Source: a virus
Length of the DNA stretch: 30,695 nt
Virus record (IMG/VR): IMGVR_UViG_3300042507_004035
Coordinates: 1-30,695 of that record
Strand: one strand, 5' to 3'
The notes below the pieces were generated by a model, which saw only the letters and a program-made list of their open reading frames with translations, did no database searches and was not told the DNA's origin. Position numbers and translations under genes: made by a program. Of the stretch, positions 3,191-30,396 are shown in pieces; position 1 is the stretch's first letter; every line of letters starts with the position of its first letter.

Positions 3191-3207
3191 GGCTCCCTTA
3201 GGGAGCC
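3191..3207 (-). terminator. Hairpin terminator after the spanin-like gene
   Basis: GGCTCCC-TTA-GGGAGCC forms a perfect seven-pair stem with a three-base loop, followed on the minus strand by a T-rich run. It sits 9 bases after the stop at 3217. Its stem is identical to that at 16934-16950. Confidence 0.75.
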
Positions 3208-3216
3208 AAACTTATT

Positions 3217-3651
3217 TTACTTTAATACTAAAAATACACTGAGAAAAGTTGCAGCTCCTGTTGTTATTTTCCAAAACAAAGTACTTCTTCTTTTACTTTT
3301 AACTTCTTTAGTTAAATCATTTGTAAGCTTTTCGTATTGGTTAATTTGTAAATCTTTTTGCTGGATGATGAATTGAGAGTTTGTATCTTTTTCTTCGTAT
3401 AAGTCAAGCATAACTGCTTTAACTTTACTTATATCTTCAAGTTTATCTATTTTTGCATATAGTAATTTTATCTCTTCAACACATCCATCATAGCGTAATA
3501 AGTCTTTTGCAACTTGTCTTGCTACTGGTGCTGGTAAGCATACTTGAGTAGTATCAGTCTTTACTACTGCTAAGGTCTTTGTTGTATCTGTTTGTGAAAA
3601 AGTATTCCAGCTCAGGGTTAGAAAACTTATTAATAGAATTAGTTTTTTCAT
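3217..3651 (-). CDS. Exported spanin-like protein with C-terminal anchor
   Basis: The 144-residue product starts MKKLILLISFLTLSWNTFSQ, a Sec signal probably cut before Gln20, as is common in Flavobacteriia. There is no lipobox cysteine. The mature part has a Thr/Asp-rich start, two cysteines (about 38 and 57), a long coiled coil (about 58-120) and a C-terminal membrane helix after a basic patch (KSKRRS). The first 98 bases of the gene overlap the end of the upstream coiled-coil gene in another frame, recalling overlapping Rz/Rz1 spanin genes. A protein with a signal at one end and a membrane anchor at the other could bridge the envelope at lysis. The assignment rests on architecture and on position after endolysin and holin. 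Confidence 0.6.
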   Translation of the reverse strand: MKKLILLISFLTLSWNTFSQTDTTKTLAVVKTDTTQVCLPAPVARQVAKDLLRYDGCVEEIKLLYAKIDKLEDISKVKAVMLDLYEEKDTNSQFIIQQKDLQINQYEKLTNDLTKEVKSKRRSTLFWKITTGAATFLSVFLVLK

Positions 3652-3916
3652 TTGTTTTTTCTTTTACTATAGTTATTGTTTTGTCAATGTGGTGAATATC
3701 GTTATTGATTGTAATTACTTTTTGTTTTACTGAATCAATCTTATGTACGATTTTAGTATCGACAGCTTTAGCTGAATCTACTTTAGTTTGTATATTCTCG
3801 ATATTCTGTTTGTAACCTTTTATGTCTGTTTTAATTCCGTTAGTAGTAAAAATTAAGTAAACAAGCAAAGCTGCAACTACATACAAAACTATATTATGAT
3901 CATTATTCTTTAACAT
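3554..3916 (-). CDS. i-spanin-like coiled-coil membrane protein
   Basis: This 120-residue protein has an N-terminal membrane helix (about residues 9-26), then a long Lys/Asp/Ile-rich coiled coil (30-90) and a short globular end (NPELEYFFTNRYNKD). That is the layout of an inner-membrane spanin whose coiled coil spans the periplasm. The ATG at 3916 overlaps the end of the holin gene by 14 bases, and its last 98 bases overlap the next gene. The expected o-spanin partner would be a lipoprotein; the overlapping gene is not one, although a separate small lipoprotein lies at 448-606. Confidence 0.6.
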   Translation of the reverse strand: MLKNNDHNIVLYVVAALLVYLIFTTNGIKTDIKGYKQNIENIQTKVDSAKAVDTKIVHKIDSVKQKVITINNDIHHIDKTITIVKEKTNEKTNSINKFSNPELEYFFTNRYNKDLSSSKD

Positions 3917-4328
3917 CTCTTTCTCCTTTATGTTTATCTAGTTTATCTAATATCTGAGTAAGTAATTCATTTGTTACAACTCCTACCATTGAAGCATTTT
4001 TTAGTACAGAGATTAGTTGGAATACTAGGAATGGTGCCATTATTGTTTCACTTAACCATCCTGTTCCTGTAAACCCTTTTTCAATTGAAAGAATACAAGC
4101 AAGCATTATATTCCAAAAGATATAAGTTTTTAATACTTTTAATGCTTTAAATGTTTGAAATCCTTCTCTTTTAATTCCAGCCCATACTCCAAAGAATCCA
4201 TCAGCAAAGACAACCAATCCTACTGCTAGAAATTGCTCAGCATTATCAGCAGTTAAATTAAAGAAATAAGTGCCTATAAAGGCTAGTAGTGTTGACATTG
4301 ATAATGTAATTAGTAGGCCTGTTTTCAT
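3903..4328 (-). CDS. Phage holin (phage_holin_4-like)
   Basis: The 141-residue protein has about three to four hydrophobic segments: residues 4-24, 31-52 (LAVGLVVFADGFFGVWAG), 68-84 and 95-112. A charged C-terminal tail follows (about 118-141). The central FADGFFGVWAGIKR resembles the D-x-x-x-G-x-x-A-x-x-x-R segment of the phage_holin_4 family. It would open the inner membrane to release the endolysin. It lies 5 bases after the endolysin gene and overlaps the spanin-like gene, so all three should be translated from one transcript. Confidence 0.7.
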   Translation of the reverse strand: MKTGLLITLSMSTLLAFIGTYFFNLTADNAEQFLAVGLVVFADGFFGVWAGIKREGFQTFKALKVLKTYIFWNIMLACILSIEKGFTGTGWLSETIMAPFLVFQLISVLKNASMVGVVTNELLTQILDKLDKHKGERDVKE

Positions 4329-4333
4329 GGTAA

Positions 4334-4945
4334 CTATTTTACGTATTCGTAATATTTTTTAGTTTTTTGATTTCTATCATCTAATCCATGAGTACCACCA
4401 TTAATTCTTTTTGTAAGAGCTAAGATAGCTGCATCGTTTACTCCTTGATCACAAATTGACCATAATTTATTTTTATCGAAGAAGAACATTGCTGATTCAA
4501 AAGAGTAAGTAGTTGCTACTAGATCTGGAGTAGTCATAATCTCTGGCTTCTTTAGATAATCAGAAAATGCTTTGTAATTATCTTTTCCTGTTAATTGAAG
4601 AGCTCCTCTTCCTCTGAATTTCCACCCATCTCCTGAAGCTTCTGCCCCATTACCCATTCTAGATGCATAAACTCTGTTTGCAATTTTTTCAGGATTTCTT
4701 GAATAAGATTCTTCTAAGTTACCTGGAAAATATTTTCCAAAGATCTTTTGAAGACCGTCTGCTGAGTAATTTAGATTCTCTGTAAATAATTTGAAACCTC
4801 CTGTTTCGTGTGCTGTTTGAGCAAAGAAGTGTGCTGCTCTAATTGGAGTAAATTTATAAAACTCCATTGCTTTTTTCATAGTACCAGGACCAAATACTCC
4901 GTCTGCTGTTACCCCTATTTTTTCTTGTAAACTTTTCAAGCTCAT
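4334..4945 (-). CDS. GH19 endolysin with peptidoglycan-binding domain
   Basis: Residues 1-30 are a short peptidoglycan-binding helix bundle (LQEKIGVTADGVFGPGTM). Residues 35-203 are a glycoside hydrolase family 19 domain, the chitinase-like fold used by many phage endolysins. Catalytic glutamates are likely Glu47 (TAHETGGF) and Glu56 (FTENLNYS). The family signature GRGALQLTGKDNY lies around residues 111-123. It should hydrolyse the glycan strands of host peptidoglycan. There is no signal peptide, so release depends on a holin. At 203 residues it is a normal length for a two-domain phage enzyme. It sits between the PAS membrane protein and the holin. Confidence 0.88.
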   Translation of the reverse strand: MSLKSLQEKIGVTADGVFGPGTMKKAMEFYKFTPIRAAHFFAQTAHETGGFKLFTENLNYSADGLQKIFGKYFPGNLEESYSRNPEKIANRVYASRMGNGAEASGDGWKFRGRGALQLTGKDNYKAFSDYLKKPEIMTTPDLVATTYSFESAMFFFDKNKLWSICDQGVNDAAILALTKRINGGTHGLDDRNQKTKKYYEYVK

Positions 4946-4955
4946 ATCCTAATTT

Positions 4956-6065
4956 TTATTTGTTATTATTTTCTTGTGTGGCGTATTTAATTCCCATAAT
5001 TGTACCAACTATTGAAAATGCATTAGTTAATAAAACACTAAACATATTTGACCAAGTTGAACCAATTATTTGTGTGTCCTTACCTGTAAGCATCGCTAAC
5101 CAATATAATATAGTTGTTACAACACCTACTCCAACTATAACTGCTAAAGCACATTTAACAATTATTTTTATTAACTCATTTTGACTCTTTTTTAATACTA
5201 CATCTAAATCATTTAAAGCAGTATCCTTTTCTAATTCTATTGAATTTTTAAGTTTTTCAGAGTTTTCTAATTCAATTGTTAAATTCTGTGTAAGCTCATC
5301 TATCTTCTTCTTATCATTTACAGCTTCAGTAACATCAGTAGCGATTTTAACTACATCAGTGATATTGCCTTTACTGTCAAGCACAGGATTATATGTTGCT
5401 TGTAAATAAACAATAGAGTTATCTACTTTTCTTCTTTCAAATATTCCATCAAAGAATGTACCTTTTTTTAAATTTTCCCAAAACTTAGCATATTCATCAG
5501 ACTTTGAATATTCATAGCTTACAAAAATGCTATGATGTTTTCCAATGACTTTATCTTTTTCATTGGATTTATACCCCATAGTTTCTAAGAATATAGGATT
5601 TGCATCTGTTATAAATCCATCAGTATTAAAACTAATAAGAGCTGTACTTCTATTGATAGCATCTATCTGTTTTTTACTACTAACAATAGCACTAATGTCA
5701 GTAGCAATTTTCATTATTTTAGTAATCTTACCACTATCATCAAAAATAGGATTGTAAGTTGCTTGAAGATTAATAAGACTTTTATCTTTTCGTCTTCTTT
5801 CAAATTCTCCCTGATAGTACTTACCGCTTCTTAGTATGTCCCAAAATTTTTCATATTCAAGTGATCTTGCATACTCTTCACATACAAAAGTGCTATGATG
5901 TTTACCTATAAGTTCTTCATGGTTACCCACTCCATACCCCATTGCTTCCAAGAAGATATCATTAACCCCTAGTATAATACCGCTAAGGTCAAAGTAGATA
6001 ATAGCATTACTTCTATTGATTGCCTCAAGTCTACTCAGCAATTCTTCTTTTGATAAGTTTTTCAT
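4956..6065 (-). CDS. Tandem-PAS sensor with two C-terminal membrane helices
   Basis: The 369-residue protein carries two closely related PAS domains (about 15-132 and 137-255). Both contain the block FLE(A/T)MGY...GKHHS(T/I)FV...EY..FW and end with QATYNP...KIATD(I/V), as in the cytoplasmic PAS pairs of bacterial chemoreceptors. A coiled coil follows (255-300), then two hydrophobic helices (306-328 and 345-361) and a short tail. No kinase, cyclase, HAMP or receptor signalling domain is present. The predicted topology puts both PAS domains in the cytoplasm. The gene lies 10 bases upstream of the endolysin and 2 bases downstream of another two-helix protein. The PAS ligand (heme, flavin or small molecule) cannot be told from the sequence. 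A sensor-gated holin, antiholin or lysis timer is a reasonable hypothesis. Confidence 0.8.
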   Translation of the reverse strand: MKNLSKEELLSRLEAINRSNAIIYFDLSGIILGVNDIFLEAMGYGVGNHEELIGKHHSTFVCEEYARSLEYEKFWDILRSGKYYQGEFERRRKDKSLINLQATYNPIFDDSGKITKIMKIATDISAIVSSKKQIDAINRSTALISFNTDGFITDANPIFLETMGYKSNEKDKVIGKHHSIFVSYEYSKSDEYAKFWENLKKGTFFDGIFERRKVDNSIVYLQATYNPVLDSKGNITDVVKIATDVTEAVNDKKKIDELTQNLTIELENSEKLKNSIELEKDTALNDLDVVLKKSQNELIKIIVKCALAVIVGVGVVTTILYWLAMLTGKDTQIIGSTWSNMFSVLLTNAFSIVGTIMGIKYATQENNNK

Positions 6066-6067
6066 TT

Positions 6068-6316
6068 TTACTCGTTACTAGACTTGTTTCCTCCTCTAAA
6101 ACCAGCAAACTTTTCAATTACATCAGGAAGAAAACTACCTAATGTAATGTACATGAACGCATCAAAAATATATTCATTCAGTTCTAATGCTTTACCCATG
6201 TAACCTGTAACAAGGTCAACTACAATGGCAGCTACCATTACTGCAAAAGATAAAAACCCAATTATAACTTTTTCGTTATAATCATTTGATTTCTTGAAAA
6301 TACTAAAAAATCCCAT
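6068..6316 (-). CDS. Two-helix holin-like membrane protein
   Basis: The 82-residue protein has a basic N-terminus, a strong membrane helix at about 18-38 (VIIGFLSFAVMVAAIVVDLV), a short loop, a second helix at about 48-66 and a charged tail. This is the size and shape of a class II holin. It is the first gene of the lysis module and ends 2 bases before the PAS gene, so the two are probably co-translated. With the holin at 3903-4328, this makes two holin-type genes around the endolysin; one may act as antiholin. Confidence 0.6.
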   Translation of the reverse strand: MGFFSIFKKSNDYNEKVIIGFLSFAVMVAAIVVDLVTGYMGKALELNEYIFDAFMYITLGSFLPDVIEKFAGFRGGNKSSNE

Positions 6317-6397: not shown

Positions 6398-6400
6398 GAA

Positions 6401-6423
6401 AAGCCCTGGAGTATCCAGGACTT
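6401..6423 (-). terminator. Hairpin terminator after nrdA
   Basis: AAGCCCTGGA-GTA-TCCAGGACTT is a ten-position stem with one mismatch and a three-base loop. T-rich sequence follows on the minus strand, and a T run also follows on the plus strand. It lies 26 bases after the nrdA stop and separates nucleotide metabolism from the lysis genes. Confidence 0.75.
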
Positions 6424-6448
6424 CTTTTTAAGAATTTTATATTATTAT

Positions 6449-8176
6449 TTAACCTTCACAGCTTACACAACTTTCAGCGGTACGTTGTAAATTATCTCCT
6501 CTTAACACTGATTCTGTTCTTAAGTAATATAAAGTTTTAATTCCTAAAGCATGTGCTTCTTTATGTACTGTGCTAATCCATTTAGGAGTATCATTAGGAT
6601 CAAATGATAAGTTTAAGGAAATTGCTTGATCAACATATTTTTGTCTAAGAGCATTTTGTCTTACAATTTCTAACTGATTAATTTCTTTAAAAGTTAAGAA
6701 TACTTCTTTTTCTTCATCTGATAAGATGTAATCAGGTAATCCTAATACTGAACCTTGATCCTTTAATATTTGATCCCAAACACTATCAATATTAAATCCT
6801 TTACTTTCTAATAATTTTTCTAATATTGGGTTTTTCTTAATAAATACTCCTTTAGCTGTTTTTAAATTAAAAACATTAGCAGGAATTGGTTCAATTGAAG
6901 GTGAAACACCTCCTGAGATATGAGCATTTGATACTGTTGGAGCTATAGCCATTAAATGTGTGTGACGTAATCCAGTTCCTTTACACCATTCAGGTTCACC
7001 ATATTCTAATGCTTGTGCTTTAGATGCTTTAATAGATTCTTGTTCAATAAAATCAAACATCATTCTAGTGTAAGTATCAGCTTGTATTCCAATAAATGGT
7101 AAATCTTTAGATTGTAAAAATGTATGCCATCCCAATACTCCTAAACCAATTGCTCTTCCTTTAGAGGCTGAACGTACTGTATTTTCAAAGAATTTAATAT
7201 GTTTTGCTCTATCAATAAATTCTTGTAATGCTCCTTCTAAAAACCAAGTAGATAACTCAGGTAATGTCATACCATTTTCAAACTTATAATCTTTCCATTC
7301 ATCCCATCTTGCTAAGTTTAATGAAGATAAGCAACAAATAAATGAGTGTAATTCATCTGTATAAAGTGCAATTTCAGAACAAATGTTCGTCATTGTTACT
7401 TTTAAATTATTGTTTTTGTAAGGTTGAGGATTAGTATTATTAATATTATCCTCAAACATAATATAAGGTTCACCAGTTTCTAAACGAGTTTTAAGAATTT
7501 CACCCCATAATTTTAATGCTTTAGGATCTCTTTCTTCAAGTCTATTCATAAATGCATCATCAACTACAACACATTGATGAAGATTTAAACATTGCCTATT
7601 GACATCACCTTTTGGTCTACGAATACTCATAAACTCTTCAATATCAGGATGATTAATACTTAAATTAACAGATGCTGCTCCTCTACGTACTGAGCCTTGA
7701 TTTGTTGCAAGAATTGTTGAATCAAATATTTTAGCCCAAGGTACTACACCTTCACTTACTCCATTATCTTTGATAGCTTTACCTCTACCTCTAATACGAG
7801 ATAAACCTACTCCTACTCCACCACCTTGTGAAGATAATCTCATTAATTCTGAATTAGAATGAGCGATTCCTTCAATAGAATCATCTACATCAATTCCGAA
7901 ACATGAAATTGGCATTCCTCTTTCAGTTCCCATATTTGAGAATACAGGTGATGCTAAACATAACCAATTTTTAACCATCGCTTCATAAAAGAATGGTTGT
8001 AAGTCTTTACGTTTTAATCTTCTTGCTGATGCTTTACTTACTCTTAAAAATGCTTTAAACATATCTTCTTCAGGTAGTAAATACCCTTTAGAGATAATAC
8101 TTAATGAAATTTCATCAGCCCATATTGGGTATTGTTTTCCTTTAACCCATGTACTTGTATCTACTTGTATACTCAT
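6449..8176 (-). CDS. nrdA: Class I ribonucleotide reductase large subunit
   Basis: NrdA reduces ribonucleoside diphosphates to deoxy forms for phage DNA synthesis. The active-site set is complete. Cys92 (PISCFG) and Cys281/282 are the candidate redox partners. N-x-C-x-E at 264-268 (NICSE) carries the thiyl-radical Cys266. A Tyr-Tyr pair near the end (TLYYLRTES) serves radical transfer, and the C-terminal shuttle pair is CVSC. At 575 residues it is well below the usual 700-800: it starts close to the catalytic barrel and lacks the N-terminal ATP-cone, so it should escape dATP shut-off. It follows nrdB by 13 bases and ends at a hairpin. Confidence 0.95.
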   Translation of the reverse strand: MSIQVDTSTWVKGKQYPIWADEISLSIISKGYLLPEEDMFKAFLRVSKASARRLKRKDLQPFFYEAMVKNWLCLASPVFSNMGTERGMPISCFGIDVDDSIEGIAHSNSELMRLSSQGGGVGVGLSRIRGRGKAIKDNGVSEGVVPWAKIFDSTILATNQGSVRRGAASVNLSINHPDIEEFMSIRRPKGDVNRQCLNLHQCVVVDDAFMNRLEERDPKALKLWGEILKTRLETGEPYIMFEDNINNTNPQPYKNNNLKVTMTNICSEIALYTDELHSFICCLSSLNLARWDEWKDYKFENGMTLPELSTWFLEGALQEFIDRAKHIKFFENTVRSASKGRAIGLGVLGWHTFLQSKDLPFIGIQADTYTRMMFDFIEQESIKASKAQALEYGEPEWCKGTGLRHTHLMAIAPTVSNAHISGGVSPSIEPIPANVFNLKTAKGVFIKKNPILEKLLESKGFNIDSVWDQILKDQGSVLGLPDYILSDEEKEVFLTFKEINQLEIVRQNALRQKYVDQAISLNLSFDPNDTPKWISTVHKEAHALGIKTLYYLRTESVLRGDNLQRTAESCVSCEG

Positions 8177-10588: not shown

Positions 10589-11275
10589 CTATTCTTGGTA
10601 TCTCCAAATAAAACCTCCACTAGTTTTACAGTCCCCGCATAATACACTTGCTATACTTTTAGCTCCTGTAATTTTTTTAGCTTCATTTATTGATATAAAA
10701 GAATTTAATATTTGGAAGGTTTTAGGGCATATCTGTTCAACATGACGGGTATTATAGGATTTACCAATTTTACCTTTACTAATTTTATCTCCCCAAGTAA
10801 TTTTTCTAGGTATCCCAGTTTTACTTTTACTAATTTTATCACCCCAGGTTACTACTCTTCCCAATTTACTTTCCTTCATTTTATCTTTAGATTCTTGAGA
10901 ATAATTAAATCCTAATTTCATCCCAGTTTTGGATCTCATTTCATCTGTAAATTTAAATCCAGTATGAATCTTAATAAAATTTAATCTAGTTCTTTCATAT
11001 AAACGTGAACTAGGAGTAAAATCACTATTTATAGACTTATGTTTACCATTAGCCATACACCATAAAGCATATTTTAATTTACTTTCTTTAGGATAAATTT
11101 CACAAAGTAATATATGACATAAAAAATGTTCTCTTGCTGTTAATTCTACTAGGTTTTCTTTATTATTACTTCCTCCTAAACATTTAGGAATAATATGATG
11201 TTTTTCTTTATAACCTTCTAAAATTCTATTTTGTGCTCTTTTTACTAATTGGTTGTAAATTCTTTGATAATCCAT
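10589..11275 (-). CDS. HNH homing endonuclease
   Basis: I place the start at ATG 11275; the in-frame TTG at 11281 is less likely. The HNH core is at the N-terminus (EKHHIIPKCLGGSN...NLVELTAREHFLCHIL), with the two histidines and the Asn/His metal site. Then come NUMOD3-type DNA-binding repeats (SQESKDKMKESKLG, and GDKISKSKTG and GDKISKGKIG), and a C-terminal NUMOD1-like helix-turn-helix (about 185-228). This selfish, free-standing gene sits between the exonuclease and helicase genes with its own upstream motif, the usual niche for such elements in T4-like phages. Its target is probably in or near a replication gene of related phages lacking it. Confidence 0.88.
   Translation of the reverse strand: MDYQRIYNQLVKRAQNRILEGYKEKHHIIPKCLGGSNNKENLVELTAREHFLCHILLCEIYPKESKLKYALWCMANGKHKSINSDFTPSSRLYERTRLNFIKIHTGFKFTDEMRSKTGMKLGFNYSQESKDKMKESKLGRVVTWGDKISKSKTGIPRKITWGDKISKGKIGKSYNTRHVEQICPKTFQILNSFISINEAKKITGAKSIASVLCGDCKTSGGFIWRYQE
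10764..10851. repeat. Imperfect direct repeat within the HNH gene
   Basis: Two copies of about 37 bases (10764-10800 and 10814-10851) encode the duplicated NUMOD3 unit TWGDKISK(S/G)K(T/I)G. Differences are mainly at silent or conservative positions. It looks like a recent in-frame duplication that lengthens the DNA-binding tail. Confidence 0.6.
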
Positions 11276-11295
11276 AATCAAGTTTTTATTCGATT

Positions 11296-14843: not shown

Positions 14844-15509
14844 TTATATTTTATATTGAAATTTATATTTTCTAGTGGATTTATGTTTTCCTGTAACACA
14901 GGCACTTATAGAACCTAAATTTATATTTAATTCTTGGGAAGCTTTTGTTATACTTTTCCACTCTTTAATAAAATTACCTTCTAAATCATATTGTAATATG
15001 GGTTTATATAGGGTTTTAGCTCTATTTAATTTTTCTTGTTCAGTTTGTTTTCTTCCTTTTAAACTATTACTAGTTTTATCTCTAGTAGATTGAAGAATGG
15101 TTTTATTCTTATGTGCTAATCCTATTTTATCTTTATGGGATTGTGATTTAGGTACTCCTTTATTAATGGATCTACCTTTATTGGCTATACTTATTCTTAA
15201 TTTACTTTCTTCAGATATTACAACCGCTCCTCCTCCTCCAGGATTTTTATTTAAAACTTCAAATCCCCAACATTTAAACTGGCTTATCCAGTATTGTTCT
15301 AAACTTTTCCAATCTTTAGATTCCCAACTGTTTACATAATCTATGTAACTAAATGTAATACCATTACCATAAGTTCTTTTATGTTGATTTATCCTTTTAT
15401 CCTGTTTATGAGAACGTTCCTTACCTATATAAACACTATTGGGTTTATTAAAGCAATTAGTAATTAAATAAATTTGGGTGAATTTTAAAGAAGAGTCAAT
15501 ATGTATCAT
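14844..15509 (-). CDS. GIY-YIG homing endonuclease
   Basis: The N-terminal domain (about 10-95) is a GIY-YIG nuclease: IYLI and VYIGK give the two strands of the motif, followed by an Arg (RI..HKR) and the catalytic Glu71 (SLEQYWI). Next come NUMOD3 repeats (SEESKLRISIANKGR; SQSHKDKIGLAHKNK; a third, weaker copy), then a NUMOD1 helix-turn-helix (about 170-218). It is a free-standing selfish gene between the polymerase and the 156-residue gene, with a motif 27 bases before its start. The likely cleavage target is the polymerase region of related phages. Both homing genes in this window share NUMOD-type tails but have different nucleases. Confidence 0.88.
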   Translation of the reverse strand: MIHIDSSLKFTQIYLITNCFNKPNSVYIGKERSHKQDKRINQHKRTYGNGITFSYIDYVNSWESKDWKSLEQYWISQFKCWGFEVLNKNPGGGGAVVISEESKLRISIANKGRSINKGVPKSQSHKDKIGLAHKNKTILQSTRDKTSNSLKGRKQTEQEKLNRAKTLYKPILQYDLEGNFIKEWKSITKASQELNINLGSISACVTGKHKSTRKYKFQYKI

Positions 15510-28317: not shown

Positions 28318-30396
28318 TTATGCAAAAGTTGCACCTGTTGGTGTAACATTAAAGTCTAGTATAATAAACTCAGCAGTTCTAGTAGGTTGGATGAAAATTT
28401 GACCTAACAATTGATTTCTATCAATTACCTCAGCAGTATTATTTGATTCATCCATTACTACTTTGTAAGCGTACACACCTTGTCTTTGTTGAATTGATTC
28501 AAGGTATGGATTTACTTGTCTTAAGAATCTATTTCTAGTAGCAGCTGTATTTTGTTCGAATACTAATCCATTAGCTATTTGACCAATGTATGATTTCAAT
28601 TCAATTAATAATCTTCTAACATTTACTCTATCTAAAGCTGATGCTTTTTTCTGTAATGTTTTCTGACCATATGCTACTACACCTTGTCCTGGGAATGTAG
28701 CTAATGAATTAACTTTACCAGCATATAGTGAGTCTCTATCAGATGGAGTTAATTTTCTTTCAGCTTGAATTACACTTAATCCACCTCTTTGAAAACCAGC
28801 AGGAGCAAACCATGGAGCACCTACTCTATCATTGTAAGCATAAACACTTGGAATAATTGTTGATGGTGGAACCCATGTTAATTTTCCAGTATTAGGAGCA
28901 CTAATTTGAATCCATGGATAATAAGTTGCAGCATATGAACTATCAACTGATGTTGCATTGTTAATTACTGTAGCTATATTATTTCCAAAAGCCGACATAT
29001 CTACTATTGCAATGCAATCACCTCTATCAGAAGCCATATTAGTTAATGAAGTAATAACTGCATTTCCTGTTGTAGCTGTAATACCTGGAACTGTAATTAA
29101 GTTAAATTTAAATTCATCTGGATTGCTTAATAAAGTAATTGATGAAGTATAGTCTGAATTTGATAATCCGTAAACAGCACAATTAATTCCTAAAGCTCCA
29201 CCAAATGAGCCACTTTGAGCAGTTGGTAAAGATGCTGTATAAGAAGATACTGGTGTGCCATTATTATCAAAATAATTTGGAGTAGTGTAAGTTACTGATT
29301 TTACTCTCACATATTTTGATTTGTTAGTGTAATCACCTGTTGTTTGAACATATCCGTTATCTGTAGTAGTAGATTGATTACCAATTACTGCTTCAATATA
29401 GTTAGGTTGATTAGGATCTAATGATAAACCTGTCCATTGTTCTAATACTACTTTAGAATTAATATTATCATCTCCTCTTCTAATTAGTAAATCAAATGTA
29501 CCACTTCCTGAACTAACATTTAATAATTCATATCTAATATTACTAGTTGAGCCTGATGGTAAAGTGTTATTAGTTCCCTCAGTACTAGTACTATTATTAA
29601 TAGCACCTTGTGATAAAGTTTCTAATACAAATACAGTATTTGGAGTGCCATCTGTACCTCCTACAAATGATCGAGTCACTGGAGTTCCTATACCGAAGCT
29701 ACTAGTAAGTGTAAAGGCATTTTGTGAAGTACCTGTAGCATCTGTAAAGAAAGTTAATACTCCTCCTACAAATGAAGCAGAGAAATAATTAGATACTCCA
29801 CCTGTTCCTCCATTAACAGCACTTACTACATTAGCGGCCCAACTACCAGTTGAATTTACAACGTTAACACCATTGTTGGAACCATCACCTACACCTAAGT
29901 AGATATAATTAGAACCTTCAAAATAAGATCCAGTAGCAGTATAAGGATAGTTATAAATAATATAACTAACATTACCTACAGCAGTTGTAGCGTTAATTTG
30001 AATTTGATTCCACGAACCTGTACTAGAGTTTAATACAGTAAATGAAGCAGAAGCGACAGATCCTGTTATTAAAGATATGTTGTTAGTAGCACTAGAAGTT
30101 GCGGGTAAGAATGTACCACTTACTGCTCTAGTTACTAATAAAGTAGTACCTCCTTGTTGGAAATAATTATAAGTAGAGATTGATGTTAGGTATTCGTAAG
30201 ATGTTCCCCCACTGATGAAAGACCCACCGAACTTATTTAAATAGTCACTATATGAAGTAACTAAAGTTGGAATTCTAACAGGACCTGATACTGTAGGTCC
30301 TATTATAGCCGCACCGGCAGTAATAGGGCCTTGAGTAATTTGGGATTGGTCATTTTCTCTAGTTAGAACACCTGGAGATAATAAGGTTTCAGCCAT
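28318..30396 (-). CDS. Contractile tail sheath protein
   Basis: The N-terminus (SPGVLTRENDQSQITQGPI, then AAIIGPTVSGP) and the last 150 residues (AERKLTPSDRDSLYAGKVNS, NVRRLLIELKSYIGQIANG, then FIQPTRTAEFIILDFNVTP) match gp18-type sheath proteins. The C-terminal domain forms the conserved inner layer that joins subunits and grips the tube. Between about 105 and 300 is a large Ser/Thr/Gly/Asn-rich, beta-type insertion that would face outward. At 692 residues it is slightly longer than T4 gp18 (659). It is the first complete gene in the direction of transcription, with a motif 37 bases before the ATG. Confidence 0.92.
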   Translation of the reverse strand: MAETLLSPGVLTRENDQSQITQGPITAGAAIIGPTVSGPVRIPTLVTSYSDYLNKFGGSFISGGTSYEYLTSISTYNYFQQGGTTLLVTRAVSGTFLPATSSATNNISLITGSVASASFTVLNSSTGSWNQIQINATTAVGNVSYIIYNYPYTATGSYFEGSNYIYLGVGDGSNNGVNVVNSTGSWAANVVSAVNGGTGGVSNYFSASFVGGVLTFFTDATGTSQNAFTLTSSFGIGTPVTRSFVGGTDGTPNTVFVLETLSQGAINNSTSTEGTNNTLPSGSTSNIRYELLNVSSGSGTFDLLIRRGDDNINSKVVLEQWTGLSLDPNQPNYIEAVIGNQSTTTDNGYVQTTGDYTNKSKYVRVKSVTYTTPNYFDNNGTPVSSYTASLPTAQSGSFGGALGINCAVYGLSNSDYTSSITLLSNPDEFKFNLITVPGITATTGNAVITSLTNMASDRGDCIAIVDMSAFGNNIATVINNATSVDSSYAATYYPWIQISAPNTGKLTWVPPSTIIPSVYAYNDRVGAPWFAPAGFQRGGLSVIQAERKLTPSDRDSLYAGKVNSLATFPGQGVVAYGQKTLQKKASALDRVNVRRLLIELKSYIGQIANGLVFEQNTAATRNRFLRQVNPYLESIQQRQGVYAYKVVMDESNNTAEVIDRNQLLGQIFIQPTRTAEFIILDFNVTPTGATFA

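Follow-up and report, generated by a model that had tools for sequence, protein, structure and literature searches.

The window analysed here is the whole stretch of DNA under study, a 30,695-base virus record from a contractile-tailed phage, with a tail sheath gene at 28318-30396 and all of its main genes on the minus strand. Its lysis operon runs in the order h82, sensor gene, GH19 endolysin, PF05105 holin and two overlapping spanin-like genes. The features of the operon and its borders are as follows.

6399..6425, minus strand: terminator-like hairpin separating the RNR genes from the lysis operon
6068..6316, minus strand: h82, an 82-aa two-helix membrane protein and candidate holin, of a kind that occurs beside endolysins; no family match
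4956..6065, minus strand: sensor gene, PAS-PAS-coiled coil-2TM, 369 aa (ORF list, Pfam, AlphaFold)
5685..6020, minus strand: PAS1, residues 16-127, with His57, Trp75 and Cys62 invariant among aligned homologues
5322..5651, minus strand: PAS2, residues 139-248, with His178 and Trp196 invariant
5082..5321, minus strand: coiled coil continuous with TM1, predicted as a single helix, residues 249-328 (AlphaFold)
4974..5081, minus strand: loop and TM2, residues 329-364, of which 331-363 are invariant (pN/pS 0.035)
4334..4945, minus strand: GH19 endolysin, 203 aa (Pfam, 29 bits against a cut-off of 25.5)
3903..4328, minus strand: Phage_holin_4_1 (PF05105) holin (Pfam)
3554..3916, minus strand: i-spanin-like gene, TM plus coiled coil (assigned from layout)
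3217..3651, minus strand: tentative second spanin-like gene, overlapping the first, with a signal peptide, coiled coil and C-terminal TM and no lipobox
3191..3207, minus strand: terminator-like hairpin closing the lysis operon

The sensor ORF starts 2 bases after the h82 ORF and the GH19 ORF lies 10 bases further on, coordinates that bear out the tight packing between a two-helix gene and an endolysin claimed in a preliminary description of this DNA. That description treated 4956-6316 as a single feature; the layout it gave stands, and the interval divides into two genes, the sensor at 4956-6065 and the 82-aa gene at 6068-6316. For the latter, the term holin-like suits its two helices and its position, and no Pfam or PHROGs family matched it. 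The region contains five terminator-like hairpins where 1.1 are expected. Because those at 6425-6399 and 3207-3191 frame the operon (6316-3217), the sensor gene is very probably part of the lysis transcript. Elsewhere in the window, a QueC-like gene downstream of the lysis operon (1170-2045) suggests 7-deazaguanine chemistry, in DNA modification or tRNA, and two homing-endonuclease-type genes (10589-11281 and 14844-15509) lie among the replication genes.

The protein was described as two PAS domains, a coiled coil and two membrane helices with no output domain, and both Pfam and AlphaFold agree with this layout. Pfam finds two PAS stretches (PAS_3 at 3e-24 and PAS_9 at 4e-21) and nothing beyond PAS families, and the predicted structure places PAS folds at residues 21-123 and 142-244, one helix at 246-327 and a second at 331-363. 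No MA signalling or HisKA/HATPase output domain was found in the Pfam scan, the two-TM tail being the end of the protein, and no PHROGs family matched. Comparison of the hairpin with neighbouring holin-like families by hhalign gave less than 7%, with a shallow profile (Neff 1.4). A chance arrangement is excluded because dozens of other phage contigs encode full-length homologues with 80-100% identity.

Several lines of evidence relate the PAS pair to FAD-binding redox sensors. The best PDB matches by sequence are MmoS, NifL and Aer, with MmoS also at the top by fold, and all of them are FAD redox sensors; the PAS fold that characterizes this family is recovered by Pfam, AlphaFold and fold search. 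A conserved F-alpha Trp is the primary FAD determinant in clusters 4, 9 and 14 of the FAD-binding redox PAS domains (PMC10468136), and Trp75 and Trp196, which align with the Trp of Aer, MmoS and NifL, are invariant. A pocket His (Aer H53, MmoS H132) is a determinant in clusters 9 and 14 (PMC9668731, PMC10468136), and its counterparts His57 and His178 are likewise invariant in both domains. The pocket Asn (Aer N85) is listed for clusters 4 and 14 and not for cluster 9, that of AerC (PMC10468136); here the equivalents of Asn85 are Arg90 and Arg211, and those of Aer Arg115 are Ala121 and Ala242. Judged from these residues, the determinant pattern fits the AerC type and the domains probably bind FAD, in keeping with the earlier proposal of a sensor of the host's metabolic state. 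Since the Asn85 and Arg115 equivalents are replaced, the cofactor could differ, and heme or another ligand could occupy the pocket instead. LOV structures also rank high by fold; no LOV Cys was recognised by eye, the GxNCRF-type site reading GKHHS and Cys62 lying elsewhere.

A scan of IMG/VR with the single sensor protein returned 269 relatives (the best 80 of 269 were kept), and a scan with the C-terminal tail returned about 370 loci (the best 80 of 370 were kept), with a PAS domain upstream of the tail in every kept tail-scan locus that was checked and had sufficient sequence. Single-PAS forms of about 247-255 aa carry the same tail and again adjoin lysis genes; versions with the same coiled coil and hairpin are found in L272, L284, L291, L298-L300, L324 and L266, most of them beside lysis genes. 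Among 50,697 records of named phages there is no family member; the few matches there are chemoreceptors in mislabelled or bacterial records, those to the PAS pair (MT836939 and the Listeria phage LM 4-14-1 contigs) being bacterial proteins with MA domains that sit in wrongly labelled contigs. No tail-bearing protein was found in 84,980 cellular species genomes using two short peptide patterns, a search that may miss distant homologues and that covered the two-PAS forms, in which the pattern EYEKFWD is invariant. The nearest cellular proteins are PAS pairs within Bacteroidota hybrid histidine kinases (41-49% identity), and a relative at E<1e-40 is present in only 2 of the 299 genomes from the same family.

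Because prophage copies are lacking, most carriers are probably lytic. The likeness of their lysis genes to those of Flavobacterium phage immuto points to Flavobacterium-like hosts, and the carriers are probably viruses of aquatic bacteria with flavobacterial hosts. A terminase was recognised in 7 of 30 carrier contigs and a tail sheath in 6 of 30, numbers too small to class the carriers. Four carriers (L021, L029, L039 and L152) encode small C-terminally anchored membrane proteins, show no recognised tail genes within the part that was read, and are possibly tailless phages; L021 and L029 additionally encode a HerA/packaging-type ATPase. If these carriers are indeed tailless, the family is spread across unrelated virus groups.

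Dereplication left a non-redundant set of 71 loci, of which 46 had full flanks and were testable. An endolysin (GH19, PG_binding type, GH24 or M15) lies within four genes of the sensor in 39 of these 46, compared with 0 of 139 control genes located more than eight genes away in the same loci. A relative of h82 is the commonest neighbour (34/46). The 71 loci represent 51 local gene orders, with endolysins of four families either upstream or downstream. When loci were grouped by shared non-lysis genes, an endolysin was nearby in 15 of 16 groups at two shared genes and in 21 of 27 at three. The expectation that homologues would adjoin lysis genes is therefore upheld in at least 15 gene-content groups, and together with the terminator-bounded operon these counts place the sensor in the lysis cassette and show that it is conserved there. 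Homologues away from lysis genes, put forward beforehand as evidence against such a role, do occur, and this objection applies in part: four of the 46 loci have no recognised lysis gene nearby (L039, L128, L142 and L144), and in two of them, L142 and L144, the sensor gene lies among replication genes. Two isolated Cellulophaga phages have TM proteins that correspond, in length and position, to BFVD entries whose fold is weakly PAS-like: gp090 of phi18:3 (L346:39102-39620, 172 aa), two genes before an endolysin/lysozyme, and gp108 of phi19:1 (L347:5703-6425, 240 aa), five genes before one. The likeness of gp090 is one of fold only, with no match in Pfam.

The same operon also occurs with the sensor missing. 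Anchoring on h82, 42 of 54 non-redundant close relatives have no PAS gene and 12 have one. The empty arrangement h82-GH19-holin is also found in the isolated Flavobacterium phage vB_FspM_immuto, whose h82 (79% identity), GH19 endolysin (82%) and holin (80%) share the order seen here and which, lacking the PAS gene, represents a natural empty allele. Clean junctions are seen: ahead of GH19 stands the TAAAAATTAG..ATGAG stretch, preceded by h82 where the site is empty and by the PAS gene where it is occupied. The sensor gene is thus optional in the lysis block and has been repeatedly acquired by phages with different endolysins, and because it is absent from 42 of the 54 relatives it is not the main holin. 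In immuto (L095), a 67-aa two-helix protein annotated as YneF directly follows the holin (gp189, 7310-7513) and is a plausible extra lysis protein. A resemblance between gp189 and the two-TM tail of the sensor, tempting by eye, gave nothing in hhalign; this comparison is weak, given two bad rows in the gp189 alignment and a shallow profile for the PAS tail.

In other relatives the slot is taken by a different set of genes: a 131-aa three-helix membrane protein, then a TM-4HB_MCP_1-TM protein, then a 146-aa secreted protein. The 4HB protein matches PF12729 at 35.3 bits (cut-off 27), has no output domain, and its model ranks chemoreceptor ligand-binding domains first in Foldseek, with weak E-values and a pLDDT of 66. 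We found 33 such loci (for example L158:733-1449, and also L165, L169, L179, L181, L220, L230, L247, L249, L255 and L260) and none among named phages. PAS and 4HB_MCP sensors occur together in no locus or tested contig, the contigs often being fragments.

Comparison of the sensor gene between carriers reveals strong and uneven constraint. Median pS is 0.58 (dS about 1.1) and pN 0.10, giving a pN/pS of 0.17, compared with 0.40 for GH19, 0.42 for the holin and 0.65 for h82. Within the protein the ratio is 0.28 for TM1, 0.14-0.15 for the PAS domains and 0.035 for TM2, and residues 331-363 are invariant despite near-saturated synonymous change; this pattern therefore reflects constraint and not recent spread alone. 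TM2 is only moderately hydrophobic, and tests of its polar face and moment are borderline (p 0.01-0.12). Holin families differ between carriers while TM2 stays the same, which argues that its partner is constant: most likely TM2 itself, or an unvarying component of the host, against which it packs.

Position, optionality, the alternative sensor and selection together make a tie between the sensor and lysis well supported from the genomic side. We consider it rather likely that the sensor regulates lysis timing, and give slightly better than even chances to its being an accessory, redox- or energy-responsive lysis regulator built as a sensor-gated hairpin. Each PAS domain would bind FAD and, like AerC, Aer, NifL and MmoS, monitor the host respiratory chain for its redox or energy state, which the coiled coil would relay to the two-helix hairpin. 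By way of its invariant TM2 the hairpin would then self-assemble in the inner membrane or bind one constant host target and perturb the membrane potential, to which the phage's own holins, of whatever family, would respond with a shift in lysis timing. The sensor would in this way be a gated trigger of the pinholin type and not an antiholin tailored to a particular holin. Loss of proton motive force elicits a response from holins of different families (PMC9636201), and action through the membrane potential would suit any holin. The step of self-assembly and depolarisation is the more tentative part of the scheme, and we rate it below even. More doubtful still is a generalisation in which lytic phages, probably infecting Flavobacteria, equip their lysis operons with interchangeable output-less sensors of the chemoreceptor type, either cytoplasmic FAD-PAS or periplasmic 4HB_MCP, the PAS type being a redox-gated depolarising hairpin compatible with any holin.

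The preliminary description had proposed a sensor-gated holin or antiholin; the tie to lysis is well supported, and the protein, an accessory without detectable homology to the holin-like families compared, may be a holin, an antiholin or neither. An antiholin proper, whose hairpin would hold back lysis by direct binding to the phage's holin or h82 until a change in the PAS signal, has a precedent in the sensory antiholins RI and RIII of T4 (PMC11413866) and would be in line with the predicted membrane hairpin and with the frequency of h82 relatives beside the sensor. It nevertheless appears unlikely: TM2 is invariant while h82 and the holin diverge, the holin families vary, and the sensor gene does not always adjoin h82. 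The lack of co-variation between TM2 and the phage holins speaks against a classical antiholin for one specific holin, and a constant partner favours a self-assembling or host-directed hairpin over one fitted to a single holin.

Unrelated passenger genes do at times occur near lysis cassettes, a consideration that counts against the link to lysis. A passenger (moron) serving superinfection exclusion or membrane defence from a permissive insertion site in late operons would explain the optional presence, the clean insertion and the copies located elsewhere; the varied positions in unrelated lysis cassettes, in 51 gene orders, fit poorly with one permissive site, and to our knowledge exclusion proteins rarely carry redox-type sensors, which makes this reading distinctly unlikely. 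It is improbable, too, that the protein is a decoy in which a tandem PAS taken from a Bacteroidota hybrid histidine kinase is anchored in the membrane and titrates or mis-sets host kinases, the lysis operon being only a site of late expression. Such kinases do contain its closest cellular relatives, but with a relative in only 2 of 299 same-family genomes the supposed target would be rare, and a decoy accounts neither for the recurring lysis position nor for the constraint on TM2 nor for the use of the slot by 4HB_MCP in other relatives. Bacterial contamination or mis-binned host DNA might be suspected, as PAS chemoreceptors are common in bacteria and the named-phage matches are contaminants of just this sort; however, phage lysis genes flank the sensor gene in contigs of up to 272 kb, its 2TM-tailed form is in no bacterial genome scanned, and synteny with immuto rules this origin out, leaving it a negligible probability.

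If the accessory-regulator reading is correct, uncultured aquatic phages by the hundred sense the redox or energy state of their hosts, and others a periplasmic signal, using sensor domains borrowed from bacterial signalling, and host physiology in lakes and seas is linked to burst timing. The natural presence and absence alleles at one precise site make the system directly testable.

Detailed knowledge of environment-sensing lysis control is limited to lysis inhibition of the T4 type and few other cases. Searches for papers on PAS domains with holins or endolysins, and on 4HB_MCP_1 with phage lysis, found no relevant work, and neither the papers nor the named phages contained a described system with this layout, as had been supposed; the composition of the sensor has no described counterpart that we found, and its function would be a variant of signal-responsive lysis control. 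With AerC, Aer, NifL and MmoS the sensor shares the PAS fold, the F-alpha Trp and the pocket His, and its tandem layout is that of MmoS and AerC. It differs from them in ending in a C-terminal membrane hairpin in place of a kinase, chemoreceptor or transcription-factor output, in the changed equivalents of Asn85 and Arg115, and in being encoded by a phage within a lysis operon. The phage-borne PAS receptor VqmA of vibriophage VP882 also influences lytic outcome, but as a DNA-binding quorum-sensing regulator of the lysis-lysogeny choice and not as a membrane protein of the lysis operon (PMC8284805). Pinholin S21 of phage 21 is likewise a two-helix membrane hairpin, for which the proposed self-assembly and depolarisation provide a parallel, although no homology was found, the 369-aa sensor has a large cytoplasmic sensor region and is accessory to a PF05105 holin, and the endolysin here is not known to be of the SAR type. 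Lysis inhibition in T4 (holin T, antiholins RI and RIII) and in ICP1 (PMC7182436) is similar in that lysis is regulated in response to conditions; no sequence relation to these systems was found, conservation of TM2 in the sensor does not track the holin, and where T4 RI senses superinfection in the periplasm, the sensor described here would sense in the cytoplasm.
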